Source: Candidatus Aerophobota bacterium (GTDB taxonomy: Bacteria; Aerophobota; Aerophobia; Aerophobales; B3-G15). Taken from it: 7,888 bases of DNA. Below the pieces are notes generated by a model. The model was not told where the DNA came from. It ran no database searches and saw only the letters and a program-made list of their open reading frames with translations. Within the stretch, counting starts at the first letter, position 1. Every line of letters begins with the position of its first letter. Positions 350 through 5,315 of the stretch are shown here, one piece after another. A program made the position numbers and the translations under genes. The DNA lies in NCBI GenBank assembly GCA_003648845.1, contig QMQA01000047.1, positions 1 through 7,888 on the forward strand, written 5' to 3'.

Positions 350-420
350 GTCTAAGTCAAAATCTGTGATGAAAATTTCATGGGGAAGGCCCCAACATCA
401 TCTTCTTGGCAATAAGCTTT
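350..420. repeat. 71-bp direct repeat, left copy (R1)
   Basis: Matches 5134-5205 in the same orientation with one indel (four versus five G) and two C/T substitutions, about 69 of 72 positions. It contains two adjacent small inverted repeats: ATGAAA-A-TTTCAT, then TGGGG-AAGG-CCCCA. Similarity stops abruptly at both ends. The right end abuts a truncated attC site, so R1 forms the left boundary of the cassette array. I do not recognise the repeat as a known IS end. Confidence 0.9.
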
Positions 421-482
421 AGCCGTAAGGCTGGATTTGGGCAAAGTCCCATAGGCACAAAGCCAGATACGCTCTGTTATAT
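421..482 (-). other. Truncated attC site of the DUF6544 cassette
   Basis: On the minus strand it begins with R'' ATATAAC (482-476), followed by CAGAGCGTATCTGG like the intact site at 3296-3381, then the CCCAAATCC segment shared with the 2338-2425 site. The expected second arm (a CAGATACGC-like L' and a GTTRRRY R') is absent. Instead the sequence passes through a small AGCC-GTAA-GGCT hairpin (421-432) directly into direct repeat R1. Without R' it lacks the normal cleavage point and is probably not a competent attC. The remaining DNA can still fold (431-439 with 458-466). Confidence 0.7.
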
Positions 483-501
483 GAAGTCCGCATTAAAACA
501 C

Positions 502-1350
502 CTAATAAACTAACGGTTTGTTGTATTCGATCTCGGTAATCTTAAACTTATAAACACTAAAATCTTCTGCTTTCAAGTTCCAGACGGCTTCTCCTTCTGT
601 TGGAATCTTTATACCATTTAATTCCTTATAATCCTTCAGATGGACAGAATAGTTCTCTAAGCTGTAATGGTCATTTACCCTCATATATCTCTTGCAAACA
701 AAGCTGGTAACCTCGCCATTATCTTTAAACTTAAATATCGCTGATGCTGTTACTCCCTTATAGCTCATAGTTGCTTCAGCTGAATTTGAATCAATGCTTT
801 CCCATTTTATGTACTTGCTCAAAGCTGCCGTTGGAAACCACACCGTCTCACCGAGGTATCGTAACATCGTTCCCTGATCTATTTCCTTTCCTCTGGCATT
901 CACAACGGTCATCAATGCCATAAATTTGATGAGCATGTTTCCTTTGCCTTCATAATATTTGTCTCTTCCGACAAGATATAAAAGTGGAGCCATTTTGACC
1001 TTGACTTTCCATATAAATCCCGGTTCATCTATTGTAAAATACTGCTCTGCTTCAGCAGGTATCCATGGTTGTCCTTCTTTAGTTCTTATCAAACCTTGTT
1101 GTCTCAATCTAACTGCAAATATTCTCTCCTTACCTATAACATTTGAGTTCTTTAGCCATTTTTGAACAGGTTCAGGTAACTCTTCAATATCTGATTCCGC
1201 AACGATTTTGGGTTTAGCATCTTTATTTTTCTCAAAAAGCTCCTCCACTTCACTTTTTACTTTTTGGTTGAATATAATAGTGCTGATGGTGATAGATAAC
1301 ACTATTAGAAGAATGATTATTCCCACAATGATTGGCGCAATTTTTATCAT
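502..1350 (-). CDS. Membrane-anchored DUF6544-like protein of unknown function (cassette gene)
   Basis: The protein has 282 residues. One hydrophobic segment (about 5-27) follows a short positive N-terminus and probably anchors it in the inner membrane with the rest outside the cytoplasm. The remainder matches the DUF6544 pattern as I know it: LPEPVQKWL (58-66), AEQYFTIDEPGFIWK (101-115), DQGTMLRYLGETVWFPTAAL (158-177) and IPTEGEAVW (249-257). No catalytic function is established for the family, and I infer none. The start is ATG with AGAGGTG just upstream, 39 nt after the preceding attC. The stop lies about 20 nt before its own attC R'' (482-476). It fills the cassette at 476-1394, whose ends are inverted copies. 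It is the most distal gene of the array, so any array promoter reaches it last. Confidence 0.8.
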   Translation of the reverse strand: MIKIAPIIVGIIILLIVLSITISTIIFNQKVKSEVEELFEKNKDAKPKIVAESDIEELPEPVQKWLKNSNVIGKERIFAVRLRQQGLIRTKEGQPWIPAEAEQYFTIDEPGFIWKVKVKMAPLLYLVGRDKYYEGKGNMLIKFMALMTVVNARGKEIDQGTMLRYLGETVWFPTAALSKYIKWESIDSNSAEATMSYKGVTASAIFKFKDNGEVTSFVCKRYMRVNDHYSLENYSVHLKDYKELNGIKIPTEGEAVWNLKAEDFSVYKFKITEIEYNKPLVY

Positions 1351-1387
1351 TTTTGTTCACCTCTTTTATTCAATAATAGCGGATTTC

Positions 1388-1465
1388 ATATAACGGTATG
1401 CGGATAAAAGAAGTTGCCGAAGGCAATTGGGGGGAGCGTAGCGGACCTTTTATCTGCTGTCATAT
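1388..1465 (-). other. attC site of the TauE/SafE cassette
   Basis: The site is 78 bp. On the minus strand R'' is ATATGAC (1465-1459), deviating from RYYYAAC, and R' is GTTATAT (1394-1388). The L arms pair over 8 bp (1403-1410 with 1447-1454, GATAAAAG/CTTTTATC). The tip carries TTGCC-GAA-GGCAA. It is very similar to the site at 4008-4087, sharing a 19-base identical tip block, so these two cassettes probably acquired related attC sites. Confidence 0.8.
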
Positions 1466-1502
1466 GGCCCGAAGGGAAAGGTTGCGAAGCAACTGCAGAG
1501 TC
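1466..1502. repeat. Extra hairpin-rich segment beside the attC at 1388-1465
   Basis: This stretch separates the mutated R'' box from GGGGCAAAGAA (1503-1513), which is the inverted copy of the other end of the TauE cassette (around 2322-2332). In the neighbouring cassettes that complementarity runs uninterrupted into R''. It holds two small stems with GAA loops, CCC-GAA-GGG (1468-1476) and GTTGC-GAA-GCAAC (1481-1493). These resemble attC tip hairpins, which suggests an inserted or duplicated attC fragment. Confidence 0.5.
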
Positions 1503-1541
1503 AGGGGCAAAGAAGATTTTCATTTCTTGTTCATCCTTTAA

Positions 1542-2294
1542 TTACAATGCCTTATAGATTGTTATAAAAGCAAGGGATATAATGAGTATTGTGAGCCCAA
1601 TTTCTAACCAAAATGGCTTTGTCTTTAATGACACTTTGCTTCCAATTCTTGCACCAATCATTGATCCTATAAGTACGAATAACGCTGGAAGCCAGATTAT
1701 ATTACCGCGATGCCAGTATATTGGTATAGCACCAAAGGCAGTAAAAATTGATACAGTTAATGAAGTGGCGATTGCTTGATGAGTATCAAGACCAAGACTT
1801 TTAAAAAGGGCTGGAAAGATTTGACCGCCACTGCCACCTCTTAAACCAGTTATAAAACTTACAAAAAAAGAAGAAATAAAGATATTTTTCTTAGTAGGTT
1901 TAACTTTTTGGGCAAGCTTTGGTATAATCTTACCTGAATGAATGCCAAGTGCCACTATAAAACAAAGGGTGACAAAGATAATTGCCAGGGTTAGCGTCGG
2001 AATAAATCCGACGGAAGTTGCCCCTATTATTTCTCCTAAGACACCTCCGACAATCGCATAAGTTACTATCTTTCTCGCGATATTCTTTCTCTGACTCATT
2101 GCACCTACTAATGATGAAAAAGGGATAACAAGAAAATTAATTCCGAAGGCACTTAATAAAGGCAAACCTGCAAGATTAAGCAAGGGTATTCTTACAGTTC
2201 CTCCGCCAATTCCAAACATGCCGCTCATAAAACCTGCGAAAAGTCCTATGCAAAGATAAATCAGGTTTTGTATTGTTATTATCATAATATTCAC
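1542..2294 (-). CDS. TauE/SafE family (sulfite exporter-like) membrane permease
   Basis: This is a 250-residue, strongly hydrophobic protein with about eight membrane segments and two internal halves. The first half carries GMFGIGGGTVRIPLL (25-39) and the second GLRGGSGGQIFPAL (150-163), the paired glycine-rich signatures of the TauE/SafE (formerly DUF81) family. Members move small anions such as sulfite, sulfoacetate or related organosulfur compounds across the inner membrane. The substrate here cannot be read from sequence. Length is normal for the family. The assigned start is GTG at 2294; ATG at 2285 is equally possible because no Shine-Dalgarno site is evident for either. It occupies its own integron cassette (about 1459-2344) and has no sulfur-metabolism neighbour, so it is probably a stand-alone acquired transporter. 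Confidence 0.88.
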   Translation of the reverse strand: MNIMIITIQNLIYLCIGLFAGFMSGMFGIGGGTVRIPLLNLAGLPLLSAFGINFLVIPFSSLVGAMSQRKNIARKIVTYAIVGGVLGEIIGATSVGFIPTLTLAIIFVTLCFIVALGIHSGKIIPKLAQKVKPTKKNIFISSFFVSFITGLRGGSGGQIFPALFKSLGLDTHQAIATSLTVSIFTAFGAIPIYWHRGNIIWLPALFVLIGSMIGARIGSKVSLKTKPFWLEIGLTILIISLAFITIYKAL

Positions 2295-2337
2295 ATTTTT
2301 ATTAGGCTTTGTACTTTAAATTCTTTGCCCCCAATTT

Positions 2338-2425
2338 CATATACGTTTTGCGGATATGAGAAGTCCGGGTGTAGCGAGGATTTGGGCGAAAGCCGAAGGC
2401 TGAAGCTTTATATCCCCTGTTAGGT
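2338..2425 (-). other. attC site of the MBL-hydrolase cassette
   Basis: The site is 88 bp. On the minus strand R'' is ACCTAAC (2425-2419) and the L arms pair as GGATAT/ATATCC (2352-2357 with 2410-2415). The tip bears AGCC-GAA-GGCT (2391-2401). R' reads GTATATG (2344-2338) where GTTATATG would be expected: one T of the GTT cleavage triplet is missing. The site may therefore recombine poorly. Confidence 0.75.
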
Positions 2426-2448
2426 GAAGTGCAAATTCAGGACGCATT

Positions 2449-3240
2449 TTATTCAACCTCGATTATTTTCCCTACCCCATATTCAATAAAATTTTCCTTA
2501 TATTCCTTCCGGAAAGCTTCTCTGATTAAGTCACCTGTACAGTGAGATGGGGCAACCTTTTCTACTTTTAATTCTCTAAATTCTTTAACACAAGATACTG
2601 GAGGATGATGAAAACCTCCAACAACTAAGTATACTTTATCCCTTTTCATCAACTCTTTGGCTTTTTTAACAATATTCACAATCCCGGGATGGGCACAGCC
2701 GGTAATAACTACTAATCCCCTTTTTGAATCAATAATCAAGGATTGCTCTTCTGGAGGTCCATAAAGTTCTCCTGTGGTGTAGACAAAATCAGAAATTTTT
2801 CTTGCTCCTGAAATTTCTCCAAATTTGGCTCCCTTTTCAGTTATCATATCCTTAATGGATTTGGGGAAAGAACTCGGAATGAAAACTACAACATTACTGT
2901 TTTTCCCTAAAAAACCTTCCAATCCTCCCAGATGGTCACCATGAATGTGAGAGATGACTACTTTCTTAATTGAGCTGAGCTTTATGCCTAATTTTTCCAT
3001 ATTAAAAAGCAGAATTTCTGAGTCTCCTCCAGTATCAAATAATATCAACTCCTTGGGAGTTTTTATTATAGTACCAAACCCCCAGGCAGTCTTCATTTTT
3101 GGGTCTACCTGATAGTTGTCATAGACAGAAATTAGCGTGACCTCAGGTTTTTCCGTCCTGTTTTCAACGGAAATAGCCTGATCAAAAGGAATTACTACTC
3201 CTATCAAAATACCAATTAAAACAAAAATTTTTAACTTCAT
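2449..3240 (-). CDS. Exported metallo-beta-lactamase-fold hydrolase, COG1237-like (cassette gene)
   Basis: The protein has 263 residues. A signal-peptide-like N-terminus (charged MKLK, hydrophobic core about 5-19) suggests export, unusual for this mostly cytoplasmic group. The metal site is complete: H98-I-H100-G-D102-H103 (HxHxDH), H184 in ITGCAHPG, the GGFHH motif (208-212) and H233 in PSHCTG. The TGCAHPGIVN, GGFHHPP and PSHCTG motifs are typical of COG1237 (7,8-dihydropterin-6-methyl-4-(beta-D-ribofuranosyl)aminobenzene-5'-phosphate synthase-like proteins). Most bacterial members of that group have no proven substrate, so I predict only a dinuclear-metal hydrolase. The start is ATG preceded by GGGGGTTGAG. 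The stop is 24 nt from its attC R'' box. Cassette ends 2419-2435 and 3286-3302 are inverted copies at 15 of 17 positions. Confidence 0.87.
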   Translation of the reverse strand: MKLKIFVLIGILIGVVIPFDQAISVENRTEKPEVTLISVYDNYQVDPKMKTAWGFGTIIKTPKELILFDTGGDSEILLFNMEKLGIKLSSIKKVVISHIHGDHLGGLEGFLGKNSNVVVFIPSSFPKSIKDMITEKGAKFGEISGARKISDFVYTTGELYGPPEEQSLIIDSKRGLVVITGCAHPGIVNIVKKAKELMKRDKVYLVVGGFHHPPVSCVKEFRELKVEKVAPSHCTGDLIREAFRKEYKENFIEYGVGKIIEVE

Positions 3241-3295
3241 TTCTCAACCCCCATTATTTTTTTCATTTACCCAGTATCAAATATTTTTGCATTTC

Positions 3296-3381
3296 GCCTA
3301 ACGTTCTGCGGGTATCTGAAGTCCGAGCAGAGCGAGGATTTAGACGGAGCGTGAGCAAAACCAGATACCTGTTTGTTATAC
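3296..3381 (-). other. attC site of the methyltransferase cassette
   Basis: The site is 86 bp. On the minus strand R'' is GTATAAC (3381-3375), followed by AAACAG and the L'' arm. The L arms pair over 8 bp (GGTATCTG 3311-3318 with CAGATACC 3362-3369). R' is a canonical GTTAGGC (3302-3296). The TAACAAAC after R'' resembles Vibrio cholerae repeat-type attC sites. The long central part forms the variable tip. Confidence 0.85.
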
Positions 3382-3406
3382 GCCATTGCTAACATTCTTT
3401 TCATAG

Positions 3407-3973
3407 TTACTCACCTTTTAAGTAAATCGTGAAATGCTGTTCTGGTAAAAAATCAAGCGCTTTTTCCAATTTATATCCCGCTTCTTCCATTTCTTGAATG
3501 AGAGTCTCTTTAGGAACGTGGTGTCCAAATAACCCACGGAATGTGAAAAATTTACCCTTTTTATATTCTATGATAATAACCTTTCCATATGGTTTCAAAA
3601 ACTGTTTTAGATTCTTAAAATACTCTACTCTGTTTGGTATATGGTGGGTCACATTACGCATAAATATGAAATCTAAGCTTTCTTCAGGTAAATCCAGTTT
3701 ATCTTTGGTTAAAATTGTAACTATATTGTTCAACCCATTTTCTTCACCCTTACTTTTGATAAATTGTAAAAATCCTGGATTTGTATCAACAGCGTAAACT
3801 TTGCCTTTCTCACCCACTATTTCAGCAAATCTTAGTGAAAAATAACCTCCTCCTGCACCTATATCAGCGATAGTCTGCCCTTGTTTTAATCCTATGAGTT
3901 CTATAGTTTTATCGGGTTTATTTTTCGCATCAGCTGCTTTCTTGTTAAACATTTTTGCTTTAAGGTTTCTCAT
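3407..3973 (-). CDS. Class I SAM-dependent methyltransferase (cassette gene)
   Basis: The protein has 188 residues. Motif I is ADIGAGGGYFSLRFA (36-50), the SAM-binding glycine loop. The acidic residue at the end of the second strand is D63 in YAVDTNP, binding the SAM ribose hydroxyls. MRNVTHHIPN (105-114) is the post-strand-4 segment of methyltransferase_11/UbiE-like enzymes, and YGKVIIIEY (129-137) is the following strand. It is soluble, with no signal peptide. The substrate (small molecule, lipid or metalloid) cannot be assigned. The start is ATG with GGGGGT upstream. The mouth of the cassette is unusually clear: GTTATACGCCATTGC at 3375-3389 and its exact inverse at 4000-4014 enclose only this gene. 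Confidence 0.9.
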   Translation of the reverse strand: MRNLKAKMFNKKAADAKNKPDKTIELIGLKQGQTIADIGAGGGYFSLRFAEIVGEKGKVYAVDTNPGFLQFIKSKGEENGLNNIVTILTKDKLDLPEESLDFIFMRNVTHHIPNRVEYFKNLKQFLKPYGKVIIIEYKKGKFFTFRGLFGHHVPKETLIQEMEEAGYKLEKALDFLPEQHFTIYLKGE

Positions 3974-4007
3974 TTTTTACCCCCATAGTATTTTTCGAGG
4001 CAATGGC

Positions 4008-4087
4008 GTATAACGTTTGGTGGATAAACGAAGTTGCCGAAGGCAATTTGGGTAAAGCGTAGCGAAACCTTTTATCCATTGTTAGGC
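4008..4087 (-). other. attC site of the first (small-gene) cassette
   Basis: The site is 80 bp. On the minus strand R'' is a canonical GCCTAAC (4087-4081) followed by AATGG, and R' is GTTATAC (4014-4008). The L arms pair perfectly over 8 bp (TGGATAAA 4021-4028 with TTTATCCA 4071-4078). The tip holds TTGCC-GAA-GGCAA. It is the clearest complete site in the window and closely resembles the one at 1388-1465. The stop codon of the upstream small gene lies inside its L'' arm. Confidence 0.87.
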
Positions 4088-4354
4088 GAAGTCGTTTTAA
4101 CATGTTGCTCACGAACCATTTTTTTAGGTCCCCATATTATTAAGACCACCTGGAATATTTTTAGGGTTTCTTCAAAGGTCATTATTTCAACTTTTAATTT
4201 ACGAGATATGCTTGCTAAGTCAACTAAATGCGATGCGCTTTTTTCAGAGAAATCTTGCATTTGGTAAGGTGGATGTCGATGACCAAAACGGAAACTTCAC
4301 ATAACCATACTTTGATGTATGGCAAGCTAACTCTTCTAAATGAAAAGTAAGCAT
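4072..4354 (-). pseudogene. Small unrecognised cassette gene, apparently frameshifted
   Basis: I do not recognise the product. An ATG at 4354-4352 has GAGGAG 9 nt upstream and begins MLTFHLEELACHTSKYGYVK, but that frame stops after 38 codons. The +1 frame is open from a stop at about 4301 to 4072 and holds a charged 62-residue stretch from its first ATG (4260), with no Shine-Dalgarno site there. Removing one A in the AAG codon near 4298 would join the two into a single protein of about 93 residues (…YGYVSFRFGHRHPPYQ…). I therefore read it as one gene broken by a single-base insertion or a sequencing error. Alternatively only the 62-residue part (4072-4260) is real. The C-terminus, reading into the attC, is typical of cassette genes. 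Confidence 0.4.
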
Positions 4355-4386
4355 AGTTGTAAGCTCCTCTGCTCATTTAGGCATTA

Positions 4387-4415
4387 ACCATATTGTTCTC
4401 ATCTGTCAATATCAA
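4387..4415 (-). promoter_or_regulatory. Possible promoter driving the cassette array
   Basis: On the minus strand TTGATA (4415-4410), a 17-bp spacer and TATGGT (4392-4387) form a moderate sigma70-like promoter directed into the first cassette. It lies where an integron Pc promoter would act. ATTGACA occurs twice nearby with 5 bp between copies. GTTAATG (4388-4382) immediately follows and could be the recombination junction. The -10 matches consensus at only four of six positions. Confidence 0.35.
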
Positions 4416-4436: not shown

Positions 4437-4453
4437 CTAAATTTTTAATTTAG
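4437..4453. repeat. AT-rich hairpin at the end of the toxin gene
   Basis: CTAAATT and AATTTAG form a perfect 7-bp stem with a TTT loop overlapping the DUF5615 stop codon. No U-run follows on the minus strand, so it is not a standard intrinsic terminator. It might protect the mRNA 3' end or be chance in AT-rich DNA. Confidence 0.35.
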
Positions 4454-4812
4454 GGTTTTTCTCTTTTTCTATACTTTTTCTCGTCTACAACAAATAGAGT
4501 TTCTTTAAATCTTTTTTCTTTTTCTAGTAATTTTTCGAGCACTTTGTGGCAATTTTCAAGAGAGGTAAGGTTATAGACTTTAATTATGATTATGCCGCTA
4601 TGAGTGGAGGGAGGGTATTTTCTAATATTTCCAAATCCTCTGTCATAGGTAACTAAGGTAAGGTTTCTTTCTTGAGCGTATTTAAGAATTATCTCATCTT
4701 CTTTCCCTTCTAATCCTATATTTTGAACCTTAGTTACATTACATCCCAGTTTTTCAAGGAAAATTACTGTTTGATTAGATACACACTCGTCAACAAGAAA
4801 AACTAATTTCAC
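4450..4812 (-). CDS. DUF5615 PIN-like protein, probable toxin of a TA pair
   Basis: The protein has 120 residues. It starts FLVDECVS (5-12), continues LGCNVTKVQNIGLEGKEDEI (22-41) and LVTYDRGFGNI (53-63), and ends in a lysine-rich tail. This layout is the DUF5615/Mut7-C-like compact PIN fold. D8, E9, the acidic cluster at 38-40 and D57 are the expected metal-site positions. PIN-fold toxins cleave RNA; activity is inferred here, not shown. The start is GTG. It overlaps the stop of the DUF433 gene by 4 nt (GTGA), so the two are translationally coupled, and this order and pairing recur in many bacteria. It sits at the upstream end of the cassette array, inside the direct repeats. Confidence 0.85.
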   Translation of the reverse strand: MKLVFLVDECVSNQTVIFLEKLGCNVTKVQNIGLEGKEDEIILKYAQERNLTLVTYDRGFGNIRKYPPSTHSGIIIIKVYNLTSLENCHKVLEKLLEKEKRFKETLFVVDEKKYRKREKP

Positions 4813-5048
4813 TTTCCTATTTCCACTGGATATATTTCTTCCTCTTCTATCATCTGTTTGGCATATCTAATGCAGGCTAAAATATCCTCCTTTTTAATAT
4901 GAGGATAATGATCTCGGATTATCTGTTCCACCGTTAATCCATCTGCTAATAATCCCAGAATTATATCTACAGGAACCCGAGTTCCTGCAATATGAGGTTT
5001 CCCATGAAGAACTTTTGGATCAATTTCTATGCGCTCGGCAACTCTCAT
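4809..5048 (-). CDS. DUF433 antitoxin-like DNA-binding protein
   Basis: The protein has 79 residues. The family core is IEIDPKVLHGKPHIAGTRVP (7-26), followed by a small helix-turn-helix (about 28-47, VDIILGLLADGLTVEQIIRD), then YPHIKKEDILACIRYAK (48-64). In DUF433/DUF5615 modules this protein is taken to neutralise the PIN-like partner and repress the operon. The start is ATG with AAGGAGG 8 nt upstream (5063-5057), the strongest ribosome site in this operon. The longer coupled toxin gene follows by GTGA overlap. A palindrome upstream is a likely binding site. Confidence 0.88.
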   Translation of the reverse strand: MRVAERIEIDPKVLHGKPHIAGTRVPVDIILGLLADGLTVEQIIRDHYPHIKKEDILACIRYAKQMIEEEEIYPVEIGK

Positions 5049-5133: not shown

Positions 5134-5205
5134 GTCTAAGTCAAAATCTGTGATGAAAATTTCATGGGGGAAGGCCCCAACATTATTTTCTTGGCAATAA
5201 GCTTT
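5134..5205. repeat. 72-bp direct repeat, right copy (R2)
   Basis: Same orientation as the copy at 350-420, with one extra G and two transitions. It marks the right boundary of the accessory block. Read on the minus strand with its upstream flank it is open for about 45 codons ending FITDFDLDP. The left copy carries a one-base deletion in that frame, so a coding role is uncertain. Confidence 0.9.
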
Positions 5206-5315
5206 TGCTCTATAATAATGTGTGGGTTTAAAAATGAAAGAAGCCGAAAAATTGGATCCAGAGCTACGCTACCAACAAAAGTTTCTGATTTAAAGATATA
5301 TTATCCTGTTTTTTC

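Follow-up and report, generated by a model that had tools for sequence, protein, structure and literature searches.

The 7,888-nt stretch analysed here (contig QMQA01000047.1 of a Candidatus Aerophobota bacterium, assembly GCA_003648845.1; hereafter the window) contains an integrase-free row of gene cassettes, in which single, unrelated minus-strand genes are separated by attC-like recombination sites that all have the same orientation. This row is probably a recombinase-less array, comparable to clusters of attC sites lacking integrases (CALINs), of an integron-like system that is widespread in bacteria and archaea and has a XerA-like tyrosine recombinase without the insert (I2) specific to the integron integrase IntI. 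A complete locus of this system carries, in order, the insert-less recombinase, often with a HARP-like N-terminus, an attI-like element and then co-directional, mostly single-gene cassettes, each ending in an attC-like site. The sites were scored with a covariance model, R2, built from 150 rows taken from other loci, although these rows were gathered using another model, R1, whose 41 rows included the four complete sites of the window. The sites and cassettes of the window, with R2 scores, are:

4008 to 4087, minus strand: attC-like site 4, complete, with R'' box GCCTAAC and R' box GTTATAC (90.1 bits, E 5e-21)
3296 to 3381, minus strand: attC-like site 3, complete, with R'' box GTATAAC and R' box GTTAGGC (49.2 bits, E 1e-9)
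2338 to 2425 (R2 match 2339 to 2425), minus strand: attC-like site 2, with R' box GTATATG, one T short compared with its relatives (46.8 bits, E 5e-9)
1388 to 1465, minus strand: attC-like site 1, with R'' box ATATGAC and R' box GTTATAT (70.1 bits, E 2e-15)
421 to 482, minus strand: attC-like site 0, truncated, with the R'' side (476 to 482) retained and the L'/R' side stopping at about 420, where a dispersed repeat has its edge
3302 to 4013 (gene 3407 to 3973), minus strand: methyltransferase cassette, own ends mirroring each other at 11 of 11 positions beyond TT/AA
2344 to 3301 (gene 2449 to 3240), minus strand: metallo-beta-lactamase-fold cassette, own ends mirroring at 9 of 11
1394 to 2343 (gene 1542 to 2294), minus strand: TauE/SafE-type transporter cassette, own ends mirroring at 1 of 11 as read, the start being one T short
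421 to 1393 (gene 502 to 1350), minus strand: DUF6544 cassette, far end truncated, ends mirroring at 10 of 11 (against site 0)

The first-pass annotation, made from the sequence of the window, had described four complete and one truncated attC-type sites between single genes of unrelated function, and had suggested a covariance model as a check. With our own model, R2, all four complete sites were recovered on the minus strand where they had been placed (46.8 to 90.1 bits), whereas the truncated site 0 was missed by both models; its R'' end and the start of the DUF6544 cassette nevertheless mirror each other, with agreement at 10 of 11. The description as an integrase-free array also held: the window, with four R2-scored sites 0.6 to 0.9 kb apart, fits the definition of a CALIN as two or more attC sites separated by less than 4 kb, with no adjacent intI. 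In 20 control regions (L211-L230), no match was obtained with R1 (E ≤ 0.001) or R2 (E ≤ 0.1). The R boxes, pairing L arms and hairpin tips that had been reported are attC-like in their architecture, but the R boxes proved only loosely canonical, as site 2 has GTATATG where GTT.. is expected and site 1 has ATATGAC in place of ..AAC. A strict RYYYAAC...GTTRRRY scan of the window found no pair and Rfam gave no match to it; literal structural scanners were too strict for such degenerate sites, and noisy. The bottom strand folded slightly better than the gene strand in all four sites, with weak z-scores against simple shuffles (-2.3, -0.8, 0.0 and -1.8 for sites 4, 3, 2 and 1).

If a gene is excised as a circle, the first bases of its cassette must pair with the bases just before its own R'' box. 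The own-end score compared the first 13 bases of a cassette with its own far end, at 11 informative positions. In the window, three of the four cassettes (scores of 11, 10 and 9, against 1 for the TauE cassette) have ends that rebuild one site when circular. Over 86 cassettes, three of them from the window, the mean score was 6.74 of 11, compared with 4.62 when the two sides of a single site were matched and 4.81 when the cassettes were unrelated; none of 10,000 shuffles attained this mean. These were the cassettes between consecutive model matches less than 4 kb apart, from a site list that omitted two far matches (L008), a close pair (L024), one partial match (L101) and L011, which is the contig of L148. 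The agreement of the ends extends past the 7-base R boxes, and the cassette ends fit excision and insertion at G|TT. The 10th base from the cut is a near-invariant mismatch (start GAAAT, end ACTTC; identity 0.12 over the 86 cassettes), which may mark strand or orientation.

Dispersed hairpin repeats, resembling repetitive extragenic palindromes (REP) or miniature inverted-repeat transposable elements (MITE), could also lie between genes by chance, and in favour of this some sites are solitary and those of one archaeal chromosome, discussed below, are scattered. It is nevertheless a very improbable explanation, as the two ends of one cassette agree more closely than do the two sides of a single site, the first cassette of an array fits the boundary of the attI-like element, and the sites of locus L147 are separated by mostly single, co-oriented genes.

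The sites were found far beyond the window. A scan of 84,980 species, each represented by one genome, for the 19-base core of sites 1 and 4 gave at least 118 stretches; five of the 118 lay on contigs already read as other loci. When the other 113 loci were searched directly with R1, 109 held a site at E ≤ 1e-4, and four (L012, L021, L042 and L061) had the 19-mer and no site at this threshold. As the core was the search term, only the remaining likeness counts as a finding. The commonest form of the site is nearly one sequence, consisting of YAACAGCGGATAAAAGG, a first small hairpin, CCCAAATTGCCTTCGGCAACTTC and TTTTATCCGCAAAACGTTAGGCGAAAT, and sites that are the same almost letter for letter were present in Bacteria and Archaea, in at least 28 named phyla with the four empty loci excluded. 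Among the matches listed, 34 loci came from NCBI's Methanobacteriota, and others included Chloroflexota, Bacillota, WOR-3 and Atribacterota. Most site-bearing genomes are metagenome-assembled, therefore single host labels may be binning errors. The Methanoperedenaceae archaeon GB37 (G034) is a single 1.92-Mb contig on which there are 40 R2 sites, together with a full-length and a shortened recombinase match. R2 sites were also present in 13 of 17 Aerophobota genomes. A plasmid search using the site DNA gave no match.

The first-pass annotation had also expected an integron integrase elsewhere in this bacterium or in a donor. As a canonical IntI, this was not borne out. Only 6 of the 97 distinct genomes reached via the sites have an IntI above the TIGR02249 cut-off, and the eight IntI neighbourhoods that were read (89 kb, some ending at contig edges) were free of R2 sites; the window itself contains no canonical intI with the I2 insert. 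These results argue against an ordinary CALIN whose attC sites are moved in trans by a canonical IntI with I2, as does the lack of extrahelical bases in most L stems (see below). This explanation would be in keeping with the attC-like R boxes and hairpin architecture, and parts of the text of Ghaly et al. 2022 (PMC9668308; this and the other papers given by PMC number are cited from parts of their text) lend it some weight, as that study reports that most archaeal integrons are CALINs and that, for eight out of nine archaeal attCs, recombination by IntI1 occurred at rates similar to that of a bacterial control. On balance we consider it unlikely.

At the head of many of the arrays is a XerA-like tyrosine recombinase that has no I2. 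The spacing from KGRKDR to LRHS is 65-69 residues in this insert-less clade, compared with 107 in the one IntI measured. Against NF040815 (XerA; cut-off 220 bits), the recombinases of L147 and L122 scored 237.4 and 247.7 bits, and some array-head recombinases fell under the cut-off, for example at 219.5 bits in G013. The nearest solved chains to an array-head recombinase were IntI4 and XerA. In the tree, the insert-less recombinases form a clade with support of 99/98 and IntI a separate one (100/99). Both fall, together with archaeal XerA-like enzymes, into one group whose branching is unresolved, and the XerC/D type lies outside it. About 65 N-terminal residues resemble the HARP domain (PF07443), with 29 of 45 members matching at E ≤ 0.5 (best 2.4e-6); the structure model had a predicted local distance difference test score (pLDDT) of 80.6 and a predicted template modelling score (pTM) of 0.50. 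HARP domains bind and anneal branched DNA, and the HARP-like domain could perhaps hold the hairpin of the site. One clade member, at L142, has no N-terminal region and is followed by a frame which we take to resemble an IS91-type transposase, with no sites nearby.

The recombinase and the sites occur together. R2 sites lay downstream on the same strand, within 4 kb, at 11 of the 13 testable loci of the insert-less clade, compared with 1 of 46 loci with other recombinases (Fisher test, 3e-9). The two testable clade loci without such sites were L142 and L195, and L209 was the sole positive among the 46; at L149, L152 and L208, which have other recombinases, there were sites in the region but none downstream on the same strand. 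These counts exclude two recombinase fragments, each with a site (L154 and L155), and six clade members at most 0.2 kb from a contig end (L143, L144, L191, L193, L196 and L198). Three further fragments (L199, L200 and L201) were assigned to the clade by reading their sequence and not by the tree.

As the tested recombinase loci come from site-bearing genomes, this comparison is biased; the bias is lessened by 120 genomes sampled evenly across the phylum of GB37, with a recombinase threshold of E 1e-70. Sites were present in all 11 sample genomes with the recombinase and in 29 of 109 without it (Fisher test, 2e-6). Without eight genomes already met through their sites, the counts were 7 of 7 and 25 of 105 (Fisher test, 9e-5). 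In eight recombinase-bearing sample genomes the recombinase region had not been read before, and six of these were read (all but those of G160 and G224); one of the six, G058, was already known to bear sites.

Starting from the recombinase, attC-like sites were also picked by eye downstream of it in two Bacteroidota plasmids (L232 and L233), out of ten listed plasmid matches of which two were read, and in the viral-labelled contig L241. Over the seven cassettes of these three loci, the own-end score was 48 of 63 (P 3e-4), and R2 reaches their sites poorly or not at all. R2 (E ≤ 0.1) gave 23 matches in 10 of 80 viral-contig recombinase loci and none in L241, and a second pattern scan of the viral contigs found nothing. 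Six other viral-labelled contigs (L261, L260, L262, L253, L258 and L259) carry another insert-less recombinase, without the HARP-like region, and have attC-like sites on the opposite strand. In L261 there are 8 such sites (E ≤ 0.1), and most of the open reading frames (ORFs) between them run against the orientation of the sites.

Directly after the stop codon of the recombinase, 10 aligned loci share a conserved block of AT-rich, imperfect dyads that ends in AG|TTR and resembles an attI site. The boundary was placed by eye, and the test of it came from the other end of the first cassette. First-cassette ends mirrored at 5-10 of 11 positions in all 10 loci, which was reached in none of 20,000 shuffles; L145, an array head without a clear block, was left out of the 10. 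The block was recognisable in all of six further loci, one of them with G|CAG replacing G|TT. Five of the six had sites downstream, with first-cassette end scores of 10, 9, 7, 1 and 10; for the last of these, the site compared lies at a distance of 9.6 kb. A scan for palindromes alone picked out the attI-like element in only 3 of 13 loci (0.7% in shuffles), because its dyads are imperfect, and the alignment was used in its place.

Among 194 unique sites, the R'' box has AAC in 170 and the R' box has GTT in 164, and the strict consensus is found in a minority (RYYYAAC in 64 of 194, GTTRRRY in 54 of 194). The L arms are paired in most of the 164 scored sites. With G-T pairs counted, 125 of the 164 have an uninterrupted stem of 7 or more pairs, leaving 39 below 7, and 111 have one of 9 or more; the remaining 30 of the 194 sites had no scoring anchors. 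Sites with shuffled insides had a stem of at least 7 pairs in 9 of 499 cases. The most common spacers are 1 and 5 nt. In canonical attC sites, two or three bases are extrahelical (PMC2727003), and these are read by I2 (PMC7790495). Most of the present sites are without the canonical 2-3 extrahelical bases in the L stem, and we infer that the loss of the bulges and the loss of the helix that reads them would fit each other.

The same recombinase and cassettes could also be envisaged with sites recombined as double-stranded, Xer-like palindromes and not as folded single strands. The gain of I2 is held to be the step to single-strand use, and this extra helix is regarded as the innovation that made an integron integrase of a double-strand recombinase (PMC7790495); a recombinase without I2 is therefore a point in favour of double-strand use, as are the imperfect dyads of the attI-like element. 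On the other hand, the arms of the stem vary among sites and yet stay complementary, with 60 different arm strings, although many of these are shifts of one another and the excess in a fixed register is modest. The tip with its small hairpins is also kept in most contexts, which would be needless in a double-stranded site. We therefore regard double-strand recombination as the less likely, though still a credible, alternative to folded single strands.

On the reading with folded sites, the recombinase would cut the bottom strand in its folded state and thereby join circular cassettes at attI and attC; recognition would depend on the mostly uninterrupted L stem and the unequal spacers, usually of 1 and 5 nt, rather than on extrahelical bases. 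As no recombinase lies beside the array of the window, its cassettes would move only if one were supplied in trans.

Several observations weigh against the proposed insert-less system and its link to the window. No recombinase or attI was seen in the window, and at E 1e-55 the recombinase was found in none of the 17 Aerophobota genomes. In the 120-genome sample, 29 of the 40 site-bearing genomes have no recombinase at E 1e-70, and 6 of the 12 recombinase matches cover only part of the profile. Of the 11 recombinases that head arrays, at least 5 appear to be broken or shortened, and in a sixth (L194) the end is apparently missing. The HARP match of the modelled member is 15.5 bits, compared with a Pfam gathering cut-off of 25. 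In the further attI loci, the next cassettes scored only 6, 3, 7, 10 and 3 of 11. Covariation in the L stem is modest in a fixed register, where 102 distinct arm pairs had a Watson-Crick fraction of 0.54-0.75 per position, compared with 0.32-0.65 when shuffled, and almost no excess at positions 3 and 6. Finally, the 40 sites of GB37 are scattered along the chromosome on both strands and do not form one array, therefore single cassettes appear to settle at many places.

Three further features lie around the array in the window:

4014 to 4376, minus strand: probably what remains of another cassette, upstream of site 4 and of uncertain extent, with short ORFs
350 to 423, plus strand: copy 1 of a direct repeat of about 73 bp, at whose edge site 0 stops, dispersed in related genomes too
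5134 to 5208, plus strand: copy 2 of the direct repeat, beyond the array and a DUF5615/DUF433 gene pair

ORF 4072-4260, the only one scanned in the remnant, had no family match. The repeat of about 73 bp was also found in 3 of 17 Aerophobota genomes, with six matches in total. The DUF5615 and DUF433 genes are adjacent (4450-5048), between the array and the second repeat copy, and as a pair resemble a toxin-antitoxin module. Also outside the array are genes for a Wzz-type protein, RuvC and a partial dihydropteroate synthase. The RuvC of the window is 82-83% identical to three proteins named Candidatus Aerophobetes, and the Wzz ortholog in an Aerophobetes genome (G069) lies on a 3.8-kb contig without the ruvC neighbourhood. 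A defence-family scan of six window proteins gave partial or weak matches only, the best being mad2 (3.8e-20), which covers only the methyltransferase part. At 1466-1505 of the window, and before many sites elsewhere, there is a shared stretch of about CTCTGCGGTTGCTTCGCAACCTTGCCCTTCGGGTCATATAAC with small TTCG hairpins, which is perhaps a terminator or part of a larger site.

The system resembles integrons and CALINs, including the archaeal ones of Ghaly et al. 2022, in having a tyrosine recombinase, attI, mostly single-gene cassettes with hairpin sites, a G|TT boundary and a presence in both domains. It differs from them in that the recombinase lacks the IntI insert, often has a HARP-like N-terminus and runs in the same direction as the cassettes, and in that the L stems are mostly without extrahelical bases and the R boxes follow the strict consensus only in a minority. 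With XerA-type enzymes it shares membership of NF040815 (L147 being over the cut-off), which NCBI names 'site-specific tyrosine recombinase/integron integrase', and a solved XerA among the nearest chains. XerA has been described as a chromosome dimer resolvase (PMC8138268); the present recombinase, in contrast, is found at the head of cassette arrays, together with an attI-like element, and carries an additional region at its N-terminus. According to Smyshlyaev et al. 2021 (PMC8138268), conservation of the insertion among integron-like recombinases is incomplete, and the insertion is essential for integron function; in the parts of that paper drawn on here, no insert-less member of their 'integron-like' subgroup is linked to cassette arrays. 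Of the 6,718 archaeal genomes in the study of Ghaly et al. 2022 (PMC9668308), 75 had integrons, mostly as CALINs and with six IntIs and 539 attCs in all; the archaeal IntIs were described as having the extra domain. The sites of that study may include some of the type described here. Among the titles and abstract beginnings listed in searches of the open PMC literature, without preprints, there was no paper on cassette arrays with an insert-less recombinase.

We lean, by a modest degree, towards a wider interpretation, in which these loci form an insert-less class of integron in both domains, with a XerA-like recombinase and its HARP-like domain, its own attI and bulge-free attC sites. Such a class would not need the I2 helix to recombine folded sites; it would be either a surviving relative of the state that preceded the gain of I2 or a separate solution, and would carry gene exchange between archaea and bacteria in anoxic habitats, while not being registered as complete integrons by finders based on IntI. 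The lack of intermediates has been named among the obstacles to reconstructing the ancestor of the integron integrase (PMC7790495). A cassette system with attI and attC but no I2 helix would make the origin of single-strand recombination testable, and the presence of nearly the same sites across many bacterial and archaeal phyla points to a broad route of gene exchange that has attracted little notice.

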